A program made the translations under genes and the position numbers. The notes under the pieces were generated by a model. It saw nothing but the letters and a program-made list of their open reading frames with translations. It ran no database searches and was not told the DNA's origin. This document shows, one piece after another, positions 5,551 through 49,795 of a stretch of DNA of 64,000 nt; position 1 is the first letter of the stretch, and each line of letters begins with the position of its first letter. Source of the DNA: Priestia megaterium NBRC 15308 = ATCC 14581 (GTDB lineage Bacteria > Bacillota > Bacilli > Bacillales > Bacillaceae_H); the NCBI RefSeq assembly GCF_000832985.1, contig NZ_CP009920.1, positions 372,001-436,000 on the forward strand, read 5' to 3'.

Positions 5551-6993
5551 ATGAAAACCCACAATACTCAATTGCCAAACAAAGATGACGCAGAAAAGGG
5601 ATTGAAACGAAATCTAAAAACAAGTCAATTGACAATGATTTCGATGGGCTGTGCAATTGGAACTGGACTTTTCTTAGGCAGTGGACTTGCGATTCAAACA
5701 GCTGGACCTAGTGTATTGGTTAGTTATGCTTTAGGAGCTTTTGTTGTATTACTTTTAATGGGGTGTCTGGCAGAAATGACAGTGGCCCACCCTACTTCTG
5801 GATCGTTTGGAACAATTTCCGAAAAATATGTACATCCCCTGGCAGGCTTTTTGGTTCGCTATTCATACTGGATAGCCAACGTTCTCGCCGTTGGAGTAGA
5901 AGTAAGTGCAATAGCCGTGTATATGAAGTACTGGTTTCCAAGCGTTCCGGGTATTGTCTGGATTTTAGTGTTTGCTACCATATTAATCTATGTAAACGCA
6001 ACCAGTGTTAATACGTTTGCTACTTTTGAGTATTGGTTTTCTATGATAAAAATTAGTGCGATTGTGGGCTTTATTCTTTTAGGGTCCTATGTTCTGTATG
6101 GAACAGATGCACGTCCTAATATGGGTACAGGTAATTTTGTAAATGATGGTGGATTCCTTCCTTTCGGGTGGTGGGGAATGTGGGTAGCTGTCTTTATTTC
6201 CCTCTTTAGTTTCTTAGGAACCGAAATGATTGCAGTTACAGCTGGAGAAGCAAAAGAGCCTGATATAGCCGTTCCGAAGGCTTTAAAAGCAACTGTGTTT
6301 CGTTTAACTACTTTTTACGTTTTGACTATAGGCATCATGTTAATGATTGTTCCATGGAAGTCAGCTCAAGTTGATAAAAGTCCATTTGTGAAAGTAATGG
6401 AAATTCTGAATATCCCTGCTGCCTCTGGAATTATGAATTTTATTATTTTAACGGCTGCTTTATCAGCTATGAATAGTCAGTTATATGCTTCCACACGTAT
6501 GATGTTCTCCCTCTCTCAAAGTAAATATGCACCAGCTTTTTTAGGGAGACTAAGCAAAAAAGGTGTACCGCTATGGGCCCTTGCTGTATCAACCCTGGGC
6601 ATTTTTCTTGCGGCAGCAGTTAATGGACTGCTCCCAAGCTCTTCGTATGCCTTTATGATGGGTATTTCAATGTTCGGAGCTATGTTCACATGGCTTATGA
6701 TATTTGTTTCTCACCTCTACTTCCGAAAAAAATGGGAGAAATCTGGCGGAAGAAAATTACCGGTAAGAATGCTTGGCTTCCCCTATTTTACGATTTTAGG
6801 AGCCATCTTATTACTCGGTTTAATGATTACCACTTGGTTTACAGATTTTAAAATTATGCTTCAGTTTGGAATTCCTTGGTTAGCTTTCTTATCCATTGCT
6901 TATTTTATCTCTAAGAAAAGAAAAGTTAACCATCATTTTGCAGAAGATATGGCTAATAGCAGCTTAAAAGAAGAATTAAAGGAATTACGTTAA
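5551..6993 (+). CDS. APC-family amino acid permease, probable tryptophan or kynurenine importer
   Basis: The 480-residue membrane protein has about twelve hydrophobic segments. It has the amino acid-polyamine-organocation signature at the start: LKTSQLTMISMGCAIGTGLFLGSG (about 22-45), followed by AGPSVLVSYALGAFVVLLLMGCLAEM. The family imports amino acids by proton symport. A GAGGGAGATG ribosome binding site precedes ATG. Position between kynU and kynA in a tryptophan-catabolic operon suggests tryptophan or kynurenine as substrate; the sequence itself does not prove specificity, and close relatives carry GABA, proline or aromatic amino acids. Confidence 0.85.
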   Translation: MKTHNTQLPNKDDAEKGLKRNLKTSQLTMISMGCAIGTGLFLGSGLAIQTAGPSVLVSYALGAFVVLLLMGCLAEMTVAHPTSGSFGTISEKYVHPLAGFLVRYSYWIANVLAVGVEVSAIAVYMKYWFPSVPGIVWILVFATILIYVNATSVNTFATFEYWFSMIKISAIVGFILLGSYVLYGTDARPNMGTGNFVNDGGFLPFGWWGMWVAVFISLFSFLGTEMIAVTAGEAKEPDIAVPKALKATVFRLTTFYVLTIGIMLMIVPWKSAQVDKSPFVKVMEILNIPAASGIMNFIILTAALSAMNSQLYASTRMMFSLSQSKYAPAFLGRLSKKGVPLWALAVSTLGIFLAAAVNGLLPSSSYAFMMGISMFGAMFTWLMIFVSHLYFRKKWEKSGGRKLPVRMLGFPYFTILGAILLLGLMITTWFTDFKIMLQFGIPWLAFLSIAYFISKKRKVNHHFAEDMANSSLKEELKELR

Positions 6994-19880: not shown

Positions 19881-20540
19881 ATGGTAAACCTTCGATACAT
19901 ATGGCGTCCCTTTTTAAAGTATGGACAGATGATAAAATTAGAAGAAAACACCACAATATATTATCAAGGAGAAGTTGGTAAAGGATTTTATTATTTAGAT
20001 AAAGGCAGTGTAAAGATTACTCTCTTAACTGAGAAGGGAGCAGAACGTACGGTTAACTATGTTCCTGAAGGGATGTTATTAGGGGAAAACGGTATTAATA
20101 AAGAGCCTTATTTAACAACGGCCGTAACCACAGCTCCATCCGTTTTATATTATTTTACTAATGAAACAACGTTAAAAATATACGAGGAGGAACCGAAAGC
20201 AGTCATTCTCTTTACAAATTCTCTTCTCTATAAGTTTAGATTACTAGCAGAAATTATTACGTTTCTTAATCTCCCCGTTGAACAACAGATGGCTCATTAT
20301 TTAGTAAAGCTTATAAAAGAAAATGAGGAATTTCCCTTTAATCAAACATCCTTTGCCCGCTACGTTGGGACTTCCCGCATTACCGTGAATAAAATCATTC
20401 AAAAATGGAGTAAAGAAAAATTGATTGAGCTGTCTAATCAAAATATTTATATTAAAAACATCAGTAAACTTAAAGAAATAAGAGATCAAAACAGCAAAAA
20501 TATAGGCGATTTAGATATGCTAATGCTGCCAGTAATTTGA
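19881..20540 (+). CDS. Crp/Fnr-family transcriptional regulator 2
   Basis: The 219-residue paralogue of the preceding gene shares the NNTTIYYQGEVGKGFYYLDKGSVKI-type beta roll and a C-terminal helix-turn-helix, FNQTSFARYVGTSRITVNKIIQKW. AGAAAGGTG precedes ATG, and 96 bases separate it from gene 1, so they are probably cotranscribed. Tandem paralogues next to one target operon suggest sensing of two signals, or heterodimers; neither can be shown here. A terminator follows at 20622. Confidence 0.85.
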   Translation: MVNLRYIWRPFLKYGQMIKLEENTTIYYQGEVGKGFYYLDKGSVKITLLTEKGAERTVNYVPEGMLLGENGINKEPYLTTAVTTAPSVLYYFTNETTLKIYEEEPKAVILFTNSLLYKFRLLAEIITFLNLPVEQQMAHYLVKLIKENEEFPFNQTSFARYVGTSRITVNKIIQKWSKEKLIELSNQNIYIKNISKLKEIRDQNSKNIGDLDMLMLPVI

Positions 20541-20621
20541 TTATAAATACACTTATGATACTGTTTCGCACATAGAAGGTATGGAGGAAATCCAGCATAA
20601 GTGAAAATATAATTAAATAAA

Positions 20622-20652
20622 AAAAGAAGTTACCTTGTGGTAGCTTCTTTCA
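20622..20652 (+). terminator. Terminator after the Crp/Fnr pair
   Basis: AGAAGTTACC pairs with GGTAGCTTCT across a TTGT loop, with a T-tract after and an A-tract before it. Confidence 0.8.
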
Positions 20653-20804
20653 CTAAAAAAGGAGTATATTCATTCTAAGGTTAACCTTATACCATAAATC
20701 GTGTTTTTCAGAGTACTACTACGATTTATTGTGTTTATCCTAATCAAGACGTACCTCTGTTTAAAAGTTCAATTAAAATCGACTTGCCTTATACACATAT
20801 GCCT

Positions 20805-21194
20805 TTATTTCAAAGTTACGGTTAATTCTCTTTCTGTAAAAACTTGTTTAGCAATAAAAATAGCATTTAACGCTCTAGGAAAGCCAGTGTATGGAATACA
20901 GTGAGTAATGGCTTCTACTATTTCATGTGGTGTGAGACCTACATTAAGCGCAGCATTAATATGAACATTTAATTGTGGTTCACACCCTCCTTGTGTCGTA
21001 AGCGCGCTTATTGTAACTAGTTGTTTTTGCTGTAGGTTAAGTCCTTCTCTTGTATAAATATCTCCGAAGGCAAATTCAATGACATATTTCCCAATGTCAG
21101 GAGCGATGTCTTTTAATGATTCAATTACTCGTTTTCCACCCTCTCCATCTACTTCCATTAACGTTTTCCAACCATTTTCGTAACGTTCATTCAT
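20805..21194 (-). CDS. Carboxymuconolactone decarboxylase (CMD) family protein
   Basis: The roughly 129-residue protein shows GDIYTREGLNLQQKQLVTISA, GCEPQLNVHINAALNVGLTPHEIVEAI and YTGFPRALNA, the usual conserved helices of the AhpD/CMD superfamily. No CxxC is present, so it is not an AhpD peroxidase. In many Gram-positives such genes pair with MerR regulators and act in thiol or aldehyde stress, but the substrate is unknown. It starts at ATG 21194, or TTG 21197, both within range of AAGGAG. It is divergent from a MerR gene across a MerR-type promoter. Confidence 0.85.
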   Translation of the reverse strand: MNERYENGWKTLMEVDGEGGKRVIESLKDIAPDIGKYVIEFAFGDIYTREGLNLQQKQLVTISALTTQGGCEPQLNVHINAALNVGLTPHEIVEAITHCIPYTGFPRALNAIFIAKQVFTERELTVTLK

Positions 21195-21240
21195 CAACTG
21201 AATCTCTCCTTACAACTGAGTTATTTTATTTACAAGTTAG

Positions 21241-21271
21241 ATATTACGCTTTAGAGCGCGCTCTAAAGCAA
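21241..21271 (-). promoter_or_regulatory. MerR-type promoter with 22-bp perfect palindrome
   Basis: On the minus strand TTGCTT (21271-21266) and TAATAT (21246-21241) are separated by 19 bases, the long spacer typical of MerR targets. A perfect 22-bp palindrome (21248-21269, half-site GCTTTAGAGCG) fills it. It drives the CMD-family gene. Confidence 0.8.
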
Positions 21272-21302
21272 GCATTTTATTTCTCATGTTATAATAATAA
21301 AT

Positions 21303-21686
21303 ATGGAAAATTTATTCAGTATTCAACAAGTAGCAAGTATGACCGGTCTTTCTACACATACTTTGCGTTATTACGAAAAAATTGGATTAATAAAAAATGT
21401 ACAAAGAGACCAAACCGGATATCGGCAATATACAGATTTTGATCTAGCTTGGATTCAGTTTTTAATTCGGTTACGTGTTACAGGAATGCCTATGCTTAAA
21501 ATGAAGCAGTTTTCTGATTTGCGACAGAAAGGAGATTCTACTATTACTGCAAGAAAGGAATTGTTAGAAGAACATTATAAAGATGTCTTAGGCAAGATAG
21601 AGGAACTAGAGTTAAATTCGCAGAGAATTGAAGAAAAAATTGCGCACTATAAAAAATTAGAGACAGTGGAAAACCAACAATCTTAA
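21303..21686 (+). CDS. MerR-family regulator
   Basis: The 127-residue protein has the winged helix FSIQQVASMTGLSTHTLRYYEKIGLI (about 5-30), a second wing segment GYRQYTDFDLAWIQFL, and a C-terminal coiled coil. It lacks metal-binding cysteines and resembles AdhR/YraB-type aldehyde or thiol-stress regulators. The start is unusual: TATAAT at 21290 lies only 7 bases before ATG and no ribosome binding site is visible, so the transcript may be leaderless. It controls the divergent CMD gene by the 19-bp-spacer promoter. Confidence 0.85.
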   Translation: MENLFSIQQVASMTGLSTHTLRYYEKIGLIKNVQRDQTGYRQYTDFDLAWIQFLIRLRVTGMPMLKMKQFSDLRQKGDSTITARKELLEEHYKDVLGKIEELELNSQRIEEKIAHYKKLETVENQQS

Positions 21687-21696
21687 TAAATATAAA

Positions 21697-21730
21697 AAAG
21701 AACTTGAAACACATTTTTCAAGTTCTTTTC
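21697..21730. terminator. Terminator after the MerR gene
   Basis: AAAGAACTTGAAA pairs with TTTCAAGTTCTTTT. The hairpin can act in both directions. Confidence 0.85.
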
Positions 21731-21768
21731 ATAGTACCTAGGCTAACATCAAATAGAAGGTGCTGAAT

Positions 21769-21946
21769 TTATATATTTAATAGAGACCCACCTAATACTC
21801 TATCTATAACTTCTTGACTAGATGTATGACGCTTAACAGCCTGTAGATGTAAATATCGATCTCCATATGGAAAATCTGAACTAAATTAACGTTCTCTGAG
21901 GTATTTCTTTTATAGCCAAAGACAAGGCGTATATTGTATAAAATGG
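21769..21946 (-). pseudogene. C-terminal remnant of an amidohydrolase, paralogous to 37238-38029
   Basis: Translated leftward with one frameshift, the stretch reads FYTIYALSLAIKEIPQRTL, then FSSDFPYGDRYLHLQAVK and RHTSSQEVIDRVLGG. This matches nearly residue for residue the last 58 residues of the intact amidohydrolase at 37238. The N-terminal 200 residues are missing and an extra base near ACTAAATTAACG breaks the frame. It is a decayed duplicate. A CMD-family gene lies near both copies. Confidence 0.85.
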
Positions 21947-22006
21947 CTTTGCTATAGGACTAATATAAAATGATGTCTAGTTATTGTATTATTACCGCTA
22001 GGCTGT

Positions 22007-22987
22007 TTATACACTAGTAATTTCTATTTCTTCAATATTTGGCAGTGCTTCAATTGCTCCTATCTTTGTACATACCAGCGCTCCAACTCGGTTTGCAAAT
22101 GCAATAATGTCGAGTAGCTGCTCGAAATCATTTTTAATGGATTTGATATTCTGTGTATTAGCTAATTTGAACAACGTTGCACCTACAAAAGCATCCCCAG
22201 CTCCTGTAGAGTCAATTGACTTAATAGGAATACTCTTCACTAGTTCTTTTTTTCTACTATTAGATATCAATGTTCCCCTTTTTCCAAGAGTAACTGCTAC
22301 AATTTTAGCTCCCATTTTATGTAGGGTATCAACACCTACTTCATGATTCTTAATGCCTGTGATAATCTCTAATTCTTCATCACTTACTTTTACAAAATCA
22401 CTTAAAGCAATAGCTTTCTTTGCGATTGAGATGAAATCAATTAATCTTCCTTTCCATAAATCTCTTCGATAGTTAGGATCAAAAGAAATAAACTTTCCTT
22501 CCTCTTTAGCACTAGAGATAAGGCTTAAATAAGTTTCACGGAATGGAGAAGTTAACATGGCCGTGGCTGAACCAAAATGAAGGATTCTAGCTTTATTTAT
22601 TTCATTTAGGTTAATGTCCTCCATTGTCATTAAAGCGTCAGCTCCCCTATGAAATACAAAGTCTCGCTCACCATTTTCTTGTAGAGACACAAAAGCTAGG
22701 GTAGTTGCTACCTTTTCATCCCAAGCAAGCATCGAAGTATCTACGTTTAATGAATTTAAGGTTTCTTCTAAAAAGTAACCGAATGGGTCTTTACCTACTT
22801 TACCACTAAATGATGCATTACCGCCTAGTTTCGCTATGGTTGCGCATACATTTGCTGGTGCTCCACCGGCATTTTTTAAAAATTGGCGTCCCTCTATTAA
22901 ATTGGAATTAATATTGCTACAAAAGAAATCAATTAATAATTCTCCTACACAAACAACTGGAGCATTTTCACTTATGCTATTTTGCAC
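22007..22987 (-). CDS. fruC: Fructokinase of the glucitol operon (PfkB family)
   Basis: The 326-residue ribokinase/PfkB protein shows [27 protein letters not shown] (substrate site) and [15 protein letters not shown] with the catalytic Asp. It phosphorylates fructose formed from glucitol by GutB. The start is GTG at 22987, 15 bases after gutP, with a weak GAGTG site. The set fructokinase, GPH symporter, sorbitol dehydrogenase and divergent STAND regulator matches the Bacillus subtilis gut locus. Confidence 0.85.
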
Positions 22988-23002
22988 TTATATCACACTC
23001 AT

Positions 23003-24397
23003 TTACTTAGATTTTTTCTCTAAATCCAAAATCATTTGATTATATGTTTTTTCAGTTAAAGGATAAAAGCAGATTATTAATACAGAAAGTAAAATGAAAA
23101 TTCCTGGCACTAGAGCATTCATATTTTTTATAGCATTTAAGGAAGCTACGGTTTGTTCTGCATTAGCTACATAGCCTGCTATCCCCAAATAGATGGCTGA
23201 GAATGATCCAGCAAGTGCAACCCCTAACTTATTAGTAAAACTCATTAAGGAAATAACAACACCATCTGCTCGAACTCCAGTTTTCCATTCAGCATAATCT
23301 ACACAATCGGCAACCATCCCCCAAGCTAGTGTGTTTAGTGGAGTGGTAAAGAATCCCGAAGCAAACAGCCAAAATAAAATTAAAGCAATTGAATCAAAAG
23401 AAGTAAATTGGAGTCCTATATATGAAATAAGAGATACTGTAGCTGATACAATCATTACACTCTTTCTACCCCATTTATCAGAGAATAAAGGAATAAATAA
23501 GTTACTAATTAGCGCAGCTCCAAAAAATAAAACAGTGCCCCAAAATACTAATTCCTTTTGATGAACATTGTAAGTAAAATAGTAAACCATTGTACTAAGT
23601 TTAATATTAAAACCAATAGCAAATGCCAAGAAAGACGAAACTAGTACTAGTAGTGGTTTGTTTTTAAACAAAACAGATAAAGTTACTTTAAGCCCATGTT
23701 TTTTACTCTTTTTAGGAGCAATGCGCTCGCGTACTGTAAAGAAGCTAAACAGATTTAAAATGATACTTACAGCAGCATAGACTAGAGCAGTCATCTGAAA
23801 TCCAAATTCTTGATTTTTGCCTCCAATAGCTGTTACAAGAGGGGTTGCGCATGAAATGGAAAGGAGGATTCCTACATAAACCAATATCATACGAGTAGTT
23901 GTTAAAACTGTGCGTTCCTGAACATTATTAGTAATTCGTCCTGTTAAGCTATTAACTGGAATCGTTTGCATACTAAACGTCATCCCTAATAAGATATAGG
24001 TAATATACATATATATAATATTTCCAGTTGACCCTAAGTGAGGATTGGTAAAACATAGGATAGTGAAGAAAGCAAAAGGAAGTGAGACCCATAACAAATA
24101 TGGTCTTGCTTTTCCCCAACGTGTATTAGTTTTATCTAAAATAACTCCCATTATAGGGTCGCAAATAGCATCTAGAACTCGTACTACTAAAAATAGCGTT
24201 GCAACAGCTGCAGGATGGATACCTCCGACATCAGTATAATAAAAAAGTAGATAGGCATTAACGAATTGAAAAACAATATTATATGCCATGTCTCCCGATC
24301 CATATCCAAACCGTTCTAACCAGGATAACCTAGGAATAGAATTAGGTTTACCTTTACTTTCAGCCTCTAATATTTGTGATTGTTCTGCGTTTAACAT
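23003..24397 (-). CDS. gutP: Glucitol permease, GPH-family sugar:cation symporter
   Basis: The 464-residue membrane protein has twelve hydrophobic segments and the glycoside-pentoside-hexuronide signature: [20 protein letters not shown] near the start, then [29 protein letters not shown] carriers use Na+ or H+ symport. GGAGG lies 8 bases before ATG. Glucitol as substrate is inferred from the neighbouring sorbitol dehydrogenase, fructokinase and GutR-like activator. Confidence 0.85.
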
Positions 24398-43737: not shown

Positions 43738-43743
43738 TTTATT
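43738..43743. repeat. Left target duplication of the IS21-family element
   Basis: TTTATT at 43738-43743 is repeated at 49629-49634, directly outside the element ends. A 6-bp duplication is within the IS21 range. Confidence 0.8.
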
Positions 43744-43763
43744 TGTGACTGCTAAAATAGCAT

Positions 43764-45446
43764 GGCTCTTTCTCACTTTTGGTGAAGGTAAACGTCGCTA
43801 TATGTCAAAGACATGCATTATTTTTTCAGAAAAACAACTCTACCTATAATAATGGTATGAGCACTCGTTTTTTCAACAGCTCATCACTTGCCCGACCATA
43901 CATCATACGTTTTAACATCTTCACACGATGTATATGTCCTTCAGATAGCCCATTACTTAAAGGATCAACACAAGCAGCCATTACCCCTTGTAAATCTTTT
44001 TCTATATAGGTTATAAAGGTATCGAGAGCTGGAAACGAATACATTTTACATGTTTCAATCCAACCAGGTATGCCTTGATTACTACGTTTACTCACGATGT
44101 TTCTAAATTTACGTGTCACTTCAAATAATTGTGGTATTAATGGAAACTCTTTTAAACATGCCGAAGGTAATGAATCTAACCAGTTTCTATTCTTTTCACT
44201 CCATATTTTCCACAGTAGGGAAGCTCTAGACAAAGAATGCGTTGTGGCACTGGCTCTATATTCATGACGAATTCTCGAAACGGCTTCATTTAAAGTAGAG
44301 CGACATCCTGTATAGCCTATCTTTTTAAGTTCTGCCTCCATACGACTCGTCGTCCACCCAGATAGGTTCCATTGACGTAATTGATTTAGGAATGGATCTA
44401 ATAGTCTTACACGACTAATAGGCTCTTTTTTCTTGCGTCTTAAATCTTTATAGACTGTATTACGTGAAATATGCATTTGACGCGAAATCCAAGCAATGGA
44501 TTTCCCTTTTTCTTTCCACTCTTTCACTTCTAAGGCGCGTTGCCAAACTTGCTCAGCATACTGATGGCGTTGAACATCTGTCTTGCGGATAATAAGTGGT
44601 TCTGTTGTAGGATTTTTATATTCTGTTTTTCTCCATATAGATGGAAAAGATTGTTGTAAGGTCTCTCGAATTGCTGTAAATAAACCTTTCAGAATATGCC
44701 AACGGTCCGTAATCTGATAAGCATGAGGCAGCGCTTGAGAGATAGCCTTAGCGTATGTGAAAGAACCATCACGAGTCACCGTTTGAATCGTTGGATGCTG
44801 TTCGAGCCATTTTACGACTGTTTCTTTATCTCTCCCATTTAAAATAGCGATGGGTCTTCGGGTTTCTTGATTGATAATAATCGTACCGTAACGACAACGC
44901 TTCTTAAATGCAAAGTCATCAATCCCAATATGAACCGGCGGTTCATAAGAAGGCAGCTTCAATTTATGAAGCAGGCGTAAAAGCGTATGATGACTGGTTA
45001 CAATACCTAGATGCTTAGACAGCCGAGATGCTACTTTGCAGCTCGTAGATAGTGCGATTGACTTTAACATCTCTTGTAAACGTTTGGTTTTGCGTTGATA
45101 GGTCCCTAACCACGTAAATCTTTCTGTAAAAATAGCTTGTGGGCAACTACAGTCATCGCAAAAAAACTTACGTGTTTGTATCTTTATATATGTTGTTTTA
45201 CCATACGCCGGTACATCCTGAAGGGATCGAACATATTGGCTATGAATACGGTGAGATAGAGTATGACAAGACGGACATATACAAGAGGAATGTTTAGATT
45301 TTACTAGATACATATAAGATTGATCTTCTTGTATAACTCGTAAGCATTCTATATTAGTGAAAGAAGAAAAAGGCATGTTGAGATTCGCTCCTTTTTATTT
45401 CACTATATCATCTATAAAGCACCTTCACCAAAAGTGAGAAAGAGCC
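43764..45446 (-). mobile_element. ISL3-family insertion sequence, copy 1
   Basis: This 1683-bp element has perfect 26-bp terminal inverted repeats (GGCTCTTTCTCACTTTTGGT...). It is flanked by the 8-bp duplication AATAGCAT (43756-43763 and 45447-45454), the size usual for ISL3. It sits inside the left terminal repeat of the IS21 element after its 20th base. Confidence 0.95.
43844..45376 (-). CDS. ISL3-family transposase, copy 1
   Basis: The 510-residue transposase has the N-terminal ISL3 zinc finger (CICPSCHTLSHR, later FFCDDCSCP), a helix-turn-helix (HLGIVTSHHTLLRLLHKL) and the DDE-type core beginning HIGIDDFAFKKR. AAAGGAG lies 12 bases before ATG. It is intact and identical in protein sequence to copy 2. 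Confidence 0.95.
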   Translation of the reverse strand: MPFSSFTNIECLRVIQEDQSYMYLVKSKHSSCICPSCHTLSHRIHSQYVRSLQDVPAYGKTTYIKIQTRKFFCDDCSCPQAIFTERFTWLGTYQRKTKRLQEMLKSIALSTSCKVASRLSKHLGIVTSHHTLLRLLHKLKLPSYEPPVHIGIDDFAFKKRCRYGTIIINQETRRPIAILNGRDKETVVKWLEQHPTIQTVTRDGSFTYAKAISQALPHAYQITDRWHILKGLFTAIRETLQQSFPSIWRKTEYKNPTTEPLIIRKTDVQRHQYAEQVWQRALEVKEWKEKGKSIAWISRQMHISRNTVYKDLRRKKKEPISRVRLLDPFLNQLRQWNLSGWTTSRMEAELKKIGYTGCRSTLNEAVSRIRHEYRASATTHSLSRASLLWKIWSEKNRNWLDSLPSACLKEFPLIPQLFEVTRKFRNIVSKRSNQGIPGWIETCKMYSFPALDTFITYIEKDLQGVMAACVDPLSNGLSEGHIHRVKMLKRMMYGRASDELLKKRVLIPLL

Positions 45447-45571
45447 AATAGCATTAACACTACACGCTCGAATAGCGTGAACAAAAATGCTGAAATTCGT
45501 GAACACTTCCTTAAACAATAATCTATCACGTAAGATAAAGATACGATATTTACGTGATGGAGGATGGAAAG

Positions 45572-47143
45572 GTGGATAAATGGAACGTGTACATGAATAT
45601 TAAACGCTTAAGAAAACAAGGATTCACAATTACTCAGGTAGCTAGAAAATTAGGCATTTCGAGGAATACCGTGTATAAATACATGAAAAAAGATCCTGAG
45701 GAAATGGCCTTATGGATGGCTAGTTCTCATAAAAAAAGTAGAAAGTTAGATAGATATAAAGAGGTTATTTTAGGTTGGCTGGAAAAGCATTCAGACTTAA
45801 CAGCTGCACAAATTCAAGACTGGTTAAAAGAACAGTATCCCGACGTCAAAGTTGGTGATAGCACAGTGCGAATGTATGTCGCATCCCTTCGGGATGAATA
45901 CGGTATTTCCCGAACCGTGCCTACGCGACAATATGAAGCCATTCCAGATCCCCCGATGGGACAGCAAGCACAAGTTGATTTTGGAACATGTAAAGTACGA
46001 AAAGGAGAAAAAACAACAGAGATACGTTTATGGTTCATCACATTCGTATTGTCACACTCTCGTTTTAAATATGTGGAATGGTTAGACAGGCCCTTCACAA
46101 CAAAGGATGTCATTAACGCACATGAACGAGCCTTTGAATATTTTGGAGGAATGCCGAAGGAAATTGTGTACGACCAAGATATCTTAATCTCGGTGAATGA
46201 AAATGGGGGAGATATTCAGCTAACAGAAGCGTTTCAAGGATATGTCACCTATCGGAAATTCAAGGTCCATCTATGTAGAAAAGCAGATCCTGAAAGCAAA
46301 GGGAAAATTGAGAACGTCGTTGGATATATTAAAAAGAACTTTGCCAAACACCGCCCTTTTTATAACTTAGAAAAATGGAACGAAAAAAGCCTGGGATGGT
46401 TAGAGCGTACAGCCAATCGAAACATTCATAATACAACAAAAAAGAGACCTATTGAGGTACACCAACTCGAAAAGGAACACCTTCAATCGATCTCTTTCAT
46501 TCAGAACAATCTTAGTATAACAAGGATTGTACGTAAGGACAATACCATTCGATTTCGTTCAAATCGTTATTCAGTTCCGATTGGAACATACAAACCTACA
46601 GAAGAAACCACTGTATACCTTACGGTCACAGCAGAACAAGAGTTGATTATACAAAAACAGAGCTCAAGTGATATCATTCTTGCCAGGCACCCACTTTCAC
46701 TAGACAAAGGGAAGCTTATTCAACACCGAAACCATAGGAGAGATTGGAGTAAAGGCATACCCGAATGGATTGATAAGATGAGCCAACAATTTGAAGATTC
46801 CACTCAAGCCTATGAATATCTAGAGAAAGTTCGTCAGAACTATCCGAGATACATCCGGGATCAGCTTCAAATTATAGAAAATATCCGTACAAATTATCCT
46901 ACAACTATCCTTACACAAGCATTAGATCTTTGTATGCGTAAAAAGCTTTATAGTGCAAATGACTTTCGTGATGTGATTCAGGTACTCACCCAGAGAAACC
47001 CTCAACAATTACCATCTAAAGATACTTTTTACACACCACCATCGATTGAAACACAAGTCCATTCATCTATAAAAGCAGACACAAGACCTCTGGACATGTA
47101 TGTATCCATATTGAAAGGAGACGACGAATCGTCATGCGTATAA
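45572..47143 (+). CDS. istA: IS21-family transposase IstA
   Basis: The 523-residue protein has a helix-turn-helix at the start (FTITQVARKLGISRNTVYKY) and a DDE integrase core (QAQVDFGTCKVRKGEK, later DPESKGKIENVVGYIKKNFA with the catalytic Glu). I chose GTG at 45572, since GGAGG lies 8 bases upstream and the product then begins MDKWNVYM as in other IstA; the longer frame from 45554 overlaps the ribosome binding site. Confidence 0.93.
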   Translation: MDKWNVYMNIKRLRKQGFTITQVARKLGISRNTVYKYMKKDPEEMALWMASSHKKSRKLDRYKEVILGWLEKHSDLTAAQIQDWLKEQYPDVKVGDSTVRMYVASLRDEYGISRTVPTRQYEAIPDPPMGQQAQVDFGTCKVRKGEKTTEIRLWFITFVLSHSRFKYVEWLDRPFTTKDVINAHERAFEYFGGMPKEIVYDQDILISVNENGGDIQLTEAFQGYVTYRKFKVHLCRKADPESKGKIENVVGYIKKNFAKHRPFYNLEKWNEKSLGWLERTANRNIHNTTKKRPIEVHQLEKEHLQSISFIQNNLSITRIVRKDNTIRFRSNRYSVPIGTYKPTEETTVYLTVTAEQELIIQKQSSSDIILARHPLSLDKGKLIQHRNHRRDWSKGIPEWIDKMSQQFEDSTQAYEYLEKVRQNYPRYIRDQLQIIENIRTNYPTTILTQALDLCMRKKLYSANDFRDVIQVLTQRNPQQLPSKDTFYTPPSIETQVHSSIKADTRPLDMYVSILKGDDESSCV

Positions 47144-47901
47144 CAAATGAGATGGTGCAGCAAAAACTAGCAGAGTTACAGTTTAAAGAGGTCTCAGTTT
47201 CTCTTTCGGAATTTATTCATACGTCTGAAAAAGAACAAGATTCATATCAAGCTTTTTTATATCGTATTTTATCTTTTGAAACTAAGCGCCGAGAGGATAA
47301 CAAAGTACTAAAACGTTTAAAACTAGCCTCTTTTCCCTATCAGAAGACATTAGAAGACTTTCGAATAGAGGAACAACAGTCATTAAGTACCAAGCAATTA
47401 AATCAGCTGCGAGAGCTTACTTGGCTAGAACAAGCATATAATCTTATCCTTTTAGGTCCGCCAGGTGTTGGGAAAACTCACCTGGCAATCGGATTAGGAA
47501 TAGAAGCTATTTACCGAGGATATAAAGTGATGTTTTTAGCAATGGGTGCGCTCGTACGAGCGCTAAATACACAGGATATTACGAGAAAATCACAAACAAT
47601 AGTAAAACGTCTTTTAAACGCAGACTTAGTCATCATTGATGACATCATGTATATGGCGATGGATCAACAAGAAGCGAATCTCTTTTTTCATTTTATTAAT
47701 CAACTGTATGACCGAACCTCTATTGTGTTTACATCCAATAAAGGACCAGAGGAATGGGGAGAACTGATTGGCGATCCGGGTATTACAACAGCTATATTGG
47801 ATAGGATTATCCACCGAGTAGAAGTCATTCATTTAAATGGAGACAGTTATCGCATGAAAAATCGTTCTACTATCTTTGGATCAATAAGTGTTCATGAATA
47901 A
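47134..47901 (+). CDS. istB: IS21-family helper ATPase IstB
   Basis: The 255-residue AAA+ ATPase has Walker A GPPGVGKTHLA (about 109-119) and Walker B LVIIDDI. It assists IstA in target selection. Its start overlaps istA by 10 bases, as usual for this family. AAAGGAG lies in the istA end. Confidence 0.94.
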   Translation: MRITNEMVQQKLAELQFKEVSVSLSEFIHTSEKEQDSYQAFLYRILSFETKRREDNKVLKRLKLASFPYQKTLEDFRIEEQQSLSTKQLNQLRELTWLEQAYNLILLGPPGVGKTHLAIGLGIEAIYRGYKVMFLAMGALVRALNTQDITRKSQTIVKRLLNADLVIIDDIMYMAMDQQEANLFFHFINQLYDRTSIVFTSNKGPEEWGELIGDPGITTAILDRIIHRVEVIHLNGDSYRMKNRSTIFGSISVHE

Positions 47902-47925
47902 TTAGCACGGAGTGTTCACGAAGTC

Positions 47926-49608
47926 GGCTCTTTCTCACTTTTGGTGAAGGTAAACGTCGCTATATGTCAAAGACATGCATTATTTTTTCAGAAAAACAAC
48001 TCTACCTATAATAATGGTATGAGCACTCGTTTTTTCAACAGCTCATCACTTGCCCGACCATACATCATACGTTTTAACATCTTCACACGATGTATATGTC
48101 CTTCAGATAGCCCATTACTTAAAGGATCAACACAAGCAGCCATTACCCCTTGTAAATCTTTTTCTATATAGGTTATAAAGGTATCGAGAGCTGGAAACGA
48201 ATACATTTTACATGTTTCAATCCAACCAGGTATGCCTTGATTACTACGTTTACTCACGATGTTTCTAAATTTACGTGTCACTTCAAATAATTGTGGTATT
48301 AATGGAAACTCTTTTAAACATGCCGAAGGTAATGAATCTAACCAGTTTCTATTCTTTTCACTCCATATTTTCCACAGTAGGGAAGCTCTAGACAAAGAAT
48401 GCGTTGTGGCACTGGCTCTATATTCATGACGAATTCTCGAAACGGCTTCATTTAAAGTAGAGCGACATCCTGTATAGCCTATCTTTTTAAGTTCTGCCTC
48501 CATACGACTCGTCGTCCACCCAGATAGGTTCCATTGACGTAATTGATTTAGGAATGGATCTAATAGTCTTACACGACTAATAGGCTCTTTTTTCTTGCGT
48601 CTTAAATCTTTATAGACCGTATTACGTGAAATATGCATTTGACGCGAAATCCAAGCAATGGATTTCCCTTTTTCTTTCCACTCTTTCACTTCTAAGGCGC
48701 GTTGCCAAACTTGCTCAGCATACTGATGGCGTTGAACATCTGTCTTGCGGATAATAAGTGGTTCTGTTGTAGGATTTTTATATTCTGTTTTTCTCCATAT
48801 AGATGGAAAAGATTGTTGTAAGGTCTCTCGAATTGCTGTAAATAAACCTTTCAGAATATGCCAACGGTCCGTAATCTGATAAGCATGAGGCAGCGCTTGA
48901 GAGATAGCCTTAGCGTATGTGAAAGAACCATCACGAGTCACCGTTTGAATCGTTGGATGCTGTTCGAGCCATTTTACGACTGTTTCTTTATCTCTCCCAT
49001 TTAAAATAGCGATGGGTCTTCGGGTTTCTTGATTGATAATAATCGTACCGTAACGACAACGCTTCTTAAATGCAAAGTCATCAATCCCAATATGAACCGG
49101 CGGTTCATAAGAAGGCAGCTTCAATTTATGAAGCAGGCGTAAAAGCGTATGATGACTGGTTACAATACCTAGATGCTTAGACAGCCGAGATGCTACTTTG
49201 CAGCTCGTAGATAGTGCGATTGACTTTAACATCTCTTGTAAACGTTTGGTTTTGCGTTGATAGGTCCCTAACCACGTAAATCTTTCTGTAAAAATAGCTT
49301 GTGGGCAACTACAGTCATCGCAAAAAAACTTACGTGTTTGTATCTTTATATATGTTGTTTTACCATACGCCGGTACATCCTGAAGGGATCGAACATATTG
49401 GCTATGAATACGGTGAGATAGAGTATGACAAGACGGACATATACAAGAGGAATGTTTAGATTTTACTAGATACATATAAGATTGATCTTCTTGTATAACT
49501 CGTAAGCATTCTATATTAGTGAAAGAAGAAAAAGGCATGTTGAGATTCGCTCCTTTTTATTTCACTATATCATCTATAAAGCACCTTCACCAAAAGTGAG
49601 AAAGAGCC
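47926..49608 (-). mobile_element. ISL3-family insertion sequence, copy 2
   Basis: The copy is again 1683 bp, in the same orientation as copy 1, with perfect 26-bp inverted repeats. It is flanked by a different 8-bp duplication, ACGAAGTC (47918-47925 and 49609-49616). I see one silent difference from copy 1 (T at 44456, C at 48618). It lies in the right terminal repeat of the IS21 element at the same offset as copy 1 in the left. Confidence 0.95.
48006..49538 (-). CDS. ISL3-family transposase, copy 2
   Basis: The 510-residue product is identical to that of copy 1, with the same zinc finger, helix-turn-helix and catalytic core. Both copies look functional. Confidence 0.95.
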   Translation of the reverse strand: MPFSSFTNIECLRVIQEDQSYMYLVKSKHSSCICPSCHTLSHRIHSQYVRSLQDVPAYGKTTYIKIQTRKFFCDDCSCPQAIFTERFTWLGTYQRKTKRLQEMLKSIALSTSCKVASRLSKHLGIVTSHHTLLRLLHKLKLPSYEPPVHIGIDDFAFKKRCRYGTIIINQETRRPIAILNGRDKETVVKWLEQHPTIQTVTRDGSFTYAKAISQALPHAYQITDRWHILKGLFTAIRETLQQSFPSIWRKTEYKNPTTEPLIIRKTDVQRHQYAEQVWQRALEVKEWKEKGKSIAWISRQMHISRNTVYKDLRRKKKEPISRVRLLDPFLNQLRQWNLSGWTTSRMEAELKKIGYTGCRSTLNEAVSRIRHEYRASATTHSLSRASLLWKIWSEKNRNWLDSLPSACLKEFPLIPQLFEVTRKFRNIVSKRSNQGIPGWIETCKMYSFPALDTFITYIEKDLQGVMAACVDPLSNGLSEGHIHRVKMLKRMMYGRASDELLKKRVLIPLL

Positions 49609-49795
49609 ACGAAGTCTTGACGGTCACATTTATTAAAGAGAAATACCTATAAATTTAAGATCAAAATGGAGAATAACAGAAAAAGGTGTAGAAAGAAATT
49701 TTCATTAAGCCAGGTGCAGTCTCCTTACTTCTCCAAGAATTCTTTTTTCAATTGGTTCCTGTAACAGTGATTATGTAAACTTTAAAAGTGGATTA

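Follow-up and report, generated by a model that had tools for sequence, protein, structure and literature searches.

Long-form ISL3 elements as likely parasites of IS21-family terminal repeats

The window analysed here, a 64,000 nt stretch of the genome of Priestia megaterium NBRC 15308 (= ATCC 14581), contains an insertion sequence (IS) of the IS21 family with a copy of an ISL3-family element in each of its terminal repeats (Table 1). Counting inward, TGTGACTGCTAA on the left and TGTGACCGTCAA on the right are bases 1-12 of IS21, and the 8-bp target site duplications (TSDs) of both ISL3 copies are bases 13-20. The original prediction, made from the sequence alone, had placed both copies at this same offset, regarded them as separate events and noted that IS21 retains its own TTTATT duplication. 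Our reading of the sequence agrees on all of these points, and the two ends carry different TSDs, AATAGCAT and ACGAAGTC. The transposase of this ISL3 carries a module resembling part of the IS21 protein IstA; ISL3 elements with this module are here called long forms, and those that lack it short forms. We consider it likely that the long forms are sequence-specific parasites of IS21-family terminal repeats, with the IstA-like module as the mechanism.

The family assignments are clear. In brief, the ISL3 transposase scores 279.8 bits against an NCBIfam equivalog cut-off of 180, and the element has the 8-bp target duplication and the terminal inverted repeats starting with GG of the ISL3 family. 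IstA scores 209 bits (cut-off 160) and IstB 252 bits (cut-off 200), with istA followed by istB. The IS21 ends are of the type TGT...ACA, with subterminal repeats AATAGCATTAACA, AATAGCGTGAACA and AATTCGTGAACA and a short target duplication. Chance co-occurrence and wrong family assignment were considered and rejected on these family scores and on the ten ISL3 sites of the genome.

Table 1. Features of the IS21 element and its two ISL3 copies (positions in the window)
Feature	Position	Strand	Remark
IS21 element	43744-49628		TTTATT target duplication kept on both outer sides
TTTATT IS21 target duplication	left 43738..43743, right 49629-49634	.	sequence reading
Outer 20 bp, IS21 left end	43744..43763	+	TGTGACTGCTAA + AATAGCAT
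Outer 20 bp, IS21 right end	49609..49628	-	read inward TGTGACCGTCAA + GACTTCGT
ISL3 copy A, 8-bp duplication AATAGCAT	43756..43763 and 45447-45454	.	IS21 bases 13-20
ISL3 copy A, 1683 bp	43764..45446	-	26-bp perfect terminal inverted repeats GGCTCTTTCTCACTTTTGGTGAAGGT
ISL3 copy A transposase, 510 aa	43844-45376	-	
IstA-like tandem helix-turn-helix, copy A	44255..44527	-	transposase residues 284-374
IS21 body between the two ISL3 copies	45455..47917	+	
istA, 529 aa	45554..47143	+	
istB, 255 aa	47134..47901	+	IS21 helper ATPase
ISL3 copy B, 8-bp duplication ACGAAGTC	47918..47925 and 49609-49616	.	IS21 bases 13-20 from the right end
ISL3 copy B, 1683 bp	47926..49608	-	
ISL3 copy B transposase, 510 aa	48006-49538	-	
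IstA-like tandem helix-turn-helix, copy B	48417..48689	-	residues 284-374; protein identical to copy A

The P. megaterium genome (5.75 Mb) holds nine full-length copies of this ISL3 and one diverged, internally shortened copy, and all 20 matches to the ISL3 Pfam family fall within these ten. The near identity of the nine full-length copies suggests recent activity. Eight of the ten adjoin the outer 20 bp of an IS21-type end. Six (L002, L005, L006, L008, L003 and L155) are clean insertions with an 8-bp TSD at bases 13-20. The window IS21 and a second, plasmid-borne IS21 (contig C5) hold two each, and the remaining pair lies in a gene-less IS21-type element on contig C7. Two more, L001 and L009, have the IS21 outer 20-mer on either side and no TSD. 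The remaining two, L004 and L007, have a TSD and no IS21, and partial look-alikes lie alongside: L007 carries GACGGCCAA and L004 CTGCCAA where the inner part of IS21 bases 1-12 would be.

The plasmid IS21, which has its own duplication TTCTTT, is hit in both ends at the same base as the window IS21. Its orientation relative to its two ISL3 copies is opposite to that in the window, so the insertions in the two elements are independent. Each end type is thus hit in both ISL3 orientations, and ISL3 orientation does not matter for insertion at an IS21 end. Both IS21 copies found in the genome with the window IS21 body have both ends occupied by ISL3, and an exact search of the genome for unoccupied ends of the type TGTGACYGYYAA-N8-NWACA gave no hits. 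The only two strong IstB matches (234 bits) lie in these two copies; three further matches are weak at 31-37 bits, above the Pfam cut-off.

The gene-less element on contig C7 (about 20500-23990) is about 257 bp long (TGTGACCGCCAA ... TTAGCAGTCACA), with a diverged ISL3 in its left end and a recent ISL3 in its right end, 232 bp apart. A locus from another genus of the same family (L036, ISL3 92% identical) also contains this gene-less element. The ISL3 there occupies the same base as L003 and points the same way, the left end is free, and the element sits at another place than the one on C7. The element is apparently a miniature IS21, present in two genera at different places. Eleven plasmid records carry this ISL3 or its 88% relative, and all are from Priestia. 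Contig C7 (301264 bp) is close in length to NZ_CP120604 and NZ_CP120606 combined (157530 + 143742), both with ISL3 copies, which may reflect an ISL3-mediated cointegrate or a choice in assembly. In another record from a P. megaterium strain (L261, NZ_CP069417.1, 1-1680) a circular 'plasmid' of 1680 bp consists of one long-form ISL3 with the IS21-like module. This is perhaps a transposition circle; the expected second inverted repeat was not seen at the end of the record.

The original prediction suggested that this ISL3 recognises something at IS21 ends, and proposed tabulating its insertion sites in other genomes. Such a survey bears the claim out. Of the 66 long-form sites, 47 have TGT at a distance of 20 or 21 bp from the edge of ISL3, as against one of the 23 short-form sites (Fisher p 1e-8, uncorrected for relatedness); with P. 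megaterium left out, the long-form count is 36 of 53. With a matrix built from four Priestia ends, a score of 6 or more was reached at the exact offset by 13 of the 43 other long-form sites and by none of the 23 short-form sites. Elsewhere in the 43 sites the same matrix matched twice at offset 9, the next offset, never at 0 to 7 or 10 to 14, and once, once and twice at offsets 15, 20 and 23. In the short-form sites it matched once each at offsets 13, 21 and 28. Among the 29 long-form sites with a TSD, TGT is found on one side in 18 and on both sides in none, and among the 37 without a TSD it is found on both sides in 20, on one side in 9 and on neither in 8. Comparison of the sequences demonstrates a fixed position that recurs, in both orientations. 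ISL3 targets have so far usually been described as AT-rich sites. The short forms have 8-bp duplications in 15 of 23 sites, which are AT-rich and not IS21 ends. Four of them from one genome (L202-L205) lie in T- or A-rich stretches, some just after terminator-like hairpins as judged by eye, a different target habit.

The long-form set was gathered regardless of flanks, and comprised 40 loci from a contig scan, profile matches and 14 plasmid records, mostly from other phyla and hand-picked from listings. The profile search (1e-20) gave matches in 36 of 397 genomes of the order. Narrower searches found this ISL3 in 1 of 10 genomes of the genus (its own only) and, at E<=1e-100, in 2 of the 397. 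Long-form ends were set by the inverted repeats. Ends were found for 60 of 71 input loci, and not for L043, L046, L051, L073, L074, L128, L138, L144, L146, L148 and L151; fragments, duplicates and contig-edge loci were left out (L059, L064, L072, L075, L077-L082, L121-L125, L143, L152-L154 and L247-L249). From the 60 we dropped L069 (a duplicate of L068), L056-L058 (flanks masked as N), and L140 and L066 (ends not credible), leaving 54. Adding L128, L146 and 10 of 13 plasmid loci (L251, L259 and L263 were omitted, their ends not being resolved) gave the total of 66. L041 and L042 duplicate own-genome sites and were excluded; L043 and L046, with an IS21-type end on one side, stand outside the count. 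The short-form control started from 54 copies in a class-wide family search (matches in 61 of 250 genomes). Their ends were set by a GGNTC pattern, found for 27, and four (L195, L216, L217 and L223) were dropped as not credible, leaving 23. It should be noted that the choice of short-form end pairs favoured those with a TSD, so that sites with two IS21 stubs were less likely to be seen there. A measure of inverted flanks (12 of 20 matches) was positive in 20 of 56 long and 0 of 23 short sites; cross-paired long sites gave a background of 7.7%, and the TGT and outer-repeat tests were used in its place.

A further long-form ISL3, ISEc38 of Escherichia coli, lies in IS100-type ends at all ten regions read (five distinct places). 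These were one plasmid record and nine genome stretches chosen among 50 listed of 3764 records. On one side all ten carry TGTCAACGACGGA-TGAAAAGT or a variant differing at one base. On the other, nine carry TGTCACGAAC[AG]GT-GCAA[AT]AGT; in the tenth (L269) the ISL3 lies one repeat further in. An element annotated as IS100/IS100kyp, of the IS21 family, has these flanking sequences as its right and left ends.

Several observations weigh against the targeting of IS21 ends by the long forms. TGT at 20/21 is absent from 19 of the 66 long-form sites. Among these, L054 has TGT at 23 and L256 adjoins istA/istB with a different spacing. Three share the end-like GGCTCTGTTA; an IS1595-family transposase lies 38 bp away in one, about 600 bp away in another and at neither distance in the third. 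The rest of the 19 are unexplained or only loosely similar. TGT also occurs at other offset pairs in up to 20 of 66 and 11 of 53 sites (means 5.1 and 4.0), and nine long-form sites have TGT on one side yet no TSD. istA or istB was found within 3.5 kb in only 14 of 60 long-form loci, versus 2 of 27 short. The two forms differ in ancestry besides the module, and sites within a set are related. The look-alikes at L007 and L004 have modest scores, reached by 0.1% (L007, fairly good) and 2.3% (L004, weak) of the 12-mers of the window.

One short-form locus (L214) has istB 50 bp away, which we take as chance. Read on the other strand, the GGCTCTGTTA-type end is TCAACA-N8-TAACAG, loosely like GTCAA-N8-CAACAG, the IS21 end hit by the close relative L050. 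One subgroup is also found at ends that probably belong to the IS1595 type. In the Lachnospiraceae/Clostridium relatives L056, L060 and L062 there is a TCCGG near the junction, on both sides in L060 and L062.

The long-form transposase contains a tandem helix-turn-helix (HTH) inserted inside its catalytic fold. Aligned directly with IstA of IS5376, the window transposase matches residues 10-106 (E 0.002). With a profile from 14 relatives, the best match in the Protein Data Bank (PDB) is this IstA (8b4h, 8q4d) over the whole tandem (E 5e-16), and both HTHs and the linker of the insert align with IstA residues 10-110. The NCBIfam IS21 model NF033546 is matched by all 14 members of the profile group, and the N-terminal HTH region of the window IstA is 28% identical to the ISL3 insert (E 3e-6, a single comparison). 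In an AlphaFold model of the transposase (predicted local distance difference test, pLDDT, 87) helices interrupt the RNase-H core; a single-sequence model of the whole transposase (pLDDT 36) was not used. IstA chains were among the Foldseek matches with a probability of 1.00 over about 99 columns (28% identity, E 0.008), the aligned range not being shown. No PDB structure matched the complete model in Foldseek at E<=0.001, and the top two rows were the Hermes and P-element transposases. The module was matched (E<1e-3) in 60 of 60 long loci, 50 of them over at least 80 of 114 positions, and in 0 of 27 short loci, with a profile built from 14 sequences of the long-form group itself. Comparison thus demonstrates that the forms which target IS21 have the module and that the short forms do not.

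In all nine relatives examined (L044, L046-L052 and L054; about 6280-6450 in each locus) the transposase is encoded in two overlapping frames, split at the same place with CCCTTT in the overlap. This is likely a programmed +1 frameshift at CCC-U.

According to excerpts of PMC10122671, HTH-2 of IstA sits on an outer box, CS1, and HTH-1 on an inner box, CS2, about 10 AT-rich bp apart. By this box spacing the ISL3 TSD falls between CS1 and CS2. From its similarity to IstA, its position and its absence in the short forms, we infer that the module does the target reading. The repeated landing of ISL3 at one exact base of IS21 ends is probably due to a transposase that carries a copy of the end-reading part of IS21 itself. 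We suggest that the HTH-1/linker/HTH-2 unit in the RNase-H catalytic domain would bind CS1 and CS2 of the IS21 repeat in the fashion of IstA. The catalytic domain would then cut at the 8 variable bp that separate the two boxes, whichever way ISL3 is oriented, and the insertion would split the repeat needed by IstA. With both ends hit, recombination between the ISL3 copies would remove IS21 and leave one ISL3 between two 20-bp IS21 stubs.

Alternatively, the module could bind the ends of ISL3 itself, with target choice coming from another part of the protein, from DNA bendability or from the AT content of the 8 bp. The same fold serves IstA at its own ends, which counts for this alternative and against target reading, and ISL3 transposases also have an N-terminal zinc ribbon. 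However, the terminal 150 bp of either ISL3 end contain no good CS1-like site; the best scores 3.4 with a matrix of 16 ends, whose own ends score 13.7-18.7. The short forms also make their 8-bp duplications without the module, at sites that are not IS21 ends, and precision to one base is not explicable by AT content alone. We regard binding to its own ends as improbable, and keep target reading by the module as the preferred explanation.

Sequence comparison also demonstrates the predicted remnants. In 20 of the 66 long-form sites a single ISL3 lies between two IS21 outer ends, with no TSD and with IS21 gone. A direct repeat of 4-5 bp just outside the IS ends is found in 7 of 23 two-sided sites (0.8% expected by cross-pairing), where the two-sided set takes TGT at 20 to 23 and includes one TSD site, L127. 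Because the outer direct repeat is kept in these seven, a whole IS21-type element was once present and was replaced by a single ISL3. The other 16 have no outer direct repeat, as would be expected from exchange between ISL3 copies at different places; L001 and L003 have 684 bp of right flank in common. The likely step of IS21 loss can be seen at the C5 site, which is ISL3-IS21-ISL3 in the genome studied here and one ISL3 between identical flanks in a plasmid record of DSM 32, which we take to be another stock of the same strain. From these sites, homologous recombination would seem to make most of the two-stub remnants.

It is also conceivable, if doubtful, that these sites arise in one step, with an ISL3 complex that acts on the two IS21 ends while they are synapsed and takes the place of the element. 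Two-stub sites are indeed as common as single-end insertions with a TSD (20 versus 18 of 66). On the other hand, IS21 copies with both ends separately occupied exist, in the window and on the plasmid; the DSM 32 record has one ISL3 at the plasmid site, the outcome expected from recombination; and the outer repeat is absent from 16 of the 23 two-sided sites, which fits exchange between ISL3 copies at different places. We therefore retain recombination between two ISL3 copies as the favoured route.

Two further loci concern the two families together. In L129 (4450-8550) a long-form ISL3 in an IS21-type end in turn contains an IS21-family element, a nested exchange of hits. In L075 (1184-2305) an ISL3 transposase fragment runs straight into an istB fragment (71-74% identical), a chimaeric remnant.

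The original prediction left it open whether ISL3 recognises the repeat sequence, its structure or bound transposase. Of these the repeat sequence is favoured, by the module, by the hits in the gene-less element and by the look-alike sites, while IstA bound in trans is kept as a rival. Recognition of bound IstA rather than of DNA would agree with the finding that every hit is inside the expected IstA footprint, and with the IS21 genes present in cis at several sites. We nevertheless think it quite unlikely. The ISL3 transposase has an IstA-like module of its own, predicted to bind DNA, and ISL3 has entered both ends of the gene-less element on C7, even if IstA might have acted there in trans. 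Two insertions in the genome and several elsewhere lie outside any recognised IS21, beside partial CS1 look-alikes, and one subgroup is at probable IS1595-type ends. It appears, then, that no bound IstA is needed.

Spread by descent, in which one or two ancestral insertions were copied with IS21 or by duplication, is very improbable: some loci are plain copies (the L041 site is that of the diverged copy in the genome studied here, L001 and L003 have their common right flank, and the gene-less element of L036 is hit as in L003, independence not being shown), but TSDs differ between ends, two IS21 copies of one genome carry ISL3 in opposite orientations at one and the same base, the IS21 sequences differ, as do the outer flanks, and the same offset recurs in other genera and phyla with ISL3s of about 30-45% identity.

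Insertion at IS21 ends is, as judged from the sequences compared, a pattern of an entire branch of ISL3, and often ends with IS21 removed. With somewhat less confidence than we have in the targeting itself, we suggest that this branch consists of hyperparasites. They would have taken over the end-reading module of IstA, find and split IS21 ends, and erase IS21 by recombination until ISL3 is left between two stubs. Members of the branch lie at IS21-type ends in Bacillota, Pseudomonadota and one Streptomyces, and perhaps in Cyanobacteriota and Bacteroidota. If true, insertion sequences are here engaged in a natural arms race, with the attacker using the recognition module of its victim and leaving footprints countable in any genome. 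It would also give a concrete insertion rule for a large part of the ISL3 family and explain ISL3 copies seemingly without target duplication. A compact protein would become available that might guide a DDE transposase to a particular sequence some 25-30 bp long.

With the ISL3 family (NCBIfam NF033550) the long forms share the DDE transposase, the zinc ribbon, GG...CC inverted repeats and the 8-bp target duplication. They differ from the short-form copies examined in the 510-aa transposase with an IstA-like tandem HTH in the catalytic domain and in insertion at IS21 ends, both absent there. With IstA of IS5376 they share the tandem HTH corresponding to IstA residues 10-110, whereas the remainder of the protein is a DDE transposase of ISL3 type, there is no istB, the ends are different, and IS21 is the victim. 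IS231A reportedly enters the terminal repeats of Tn4430 in Bacillus thuringiensis, a related host. That system is likewise an IS entering transposon ends, but belongs to the IS4 family, with another target motif and longer duplications. Excerpts of PMC2266710 describe some insertion specificity of IS231A and duplications of about 10 bp in IS4-family members.

IS4321/IS5075, of the IS1111 group, also target the ends of another transposon, the terminal repeats of the Tn21 family (Partridge and Hall 2003, by its title as cited in PMC11187229). According to parts of the latter, IS1111/IS110 types use a DEDD enzyme and a guide RNA. The ISL3 described here is instead a DDE element with an 8-bp duplication and an apparent readout by protein; it has no DEDD recombinase, and a guide RNA was not searched for. 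We found no report of ISL3 insertion at IS21 ends among the titles and abstract openings of the open-licence literature. Targeting of transposon ends by IS elements is thus already known, and, within the literature so covered, the targeting of IS21 ends by ISL3 appears to be new within the ISL3 family.

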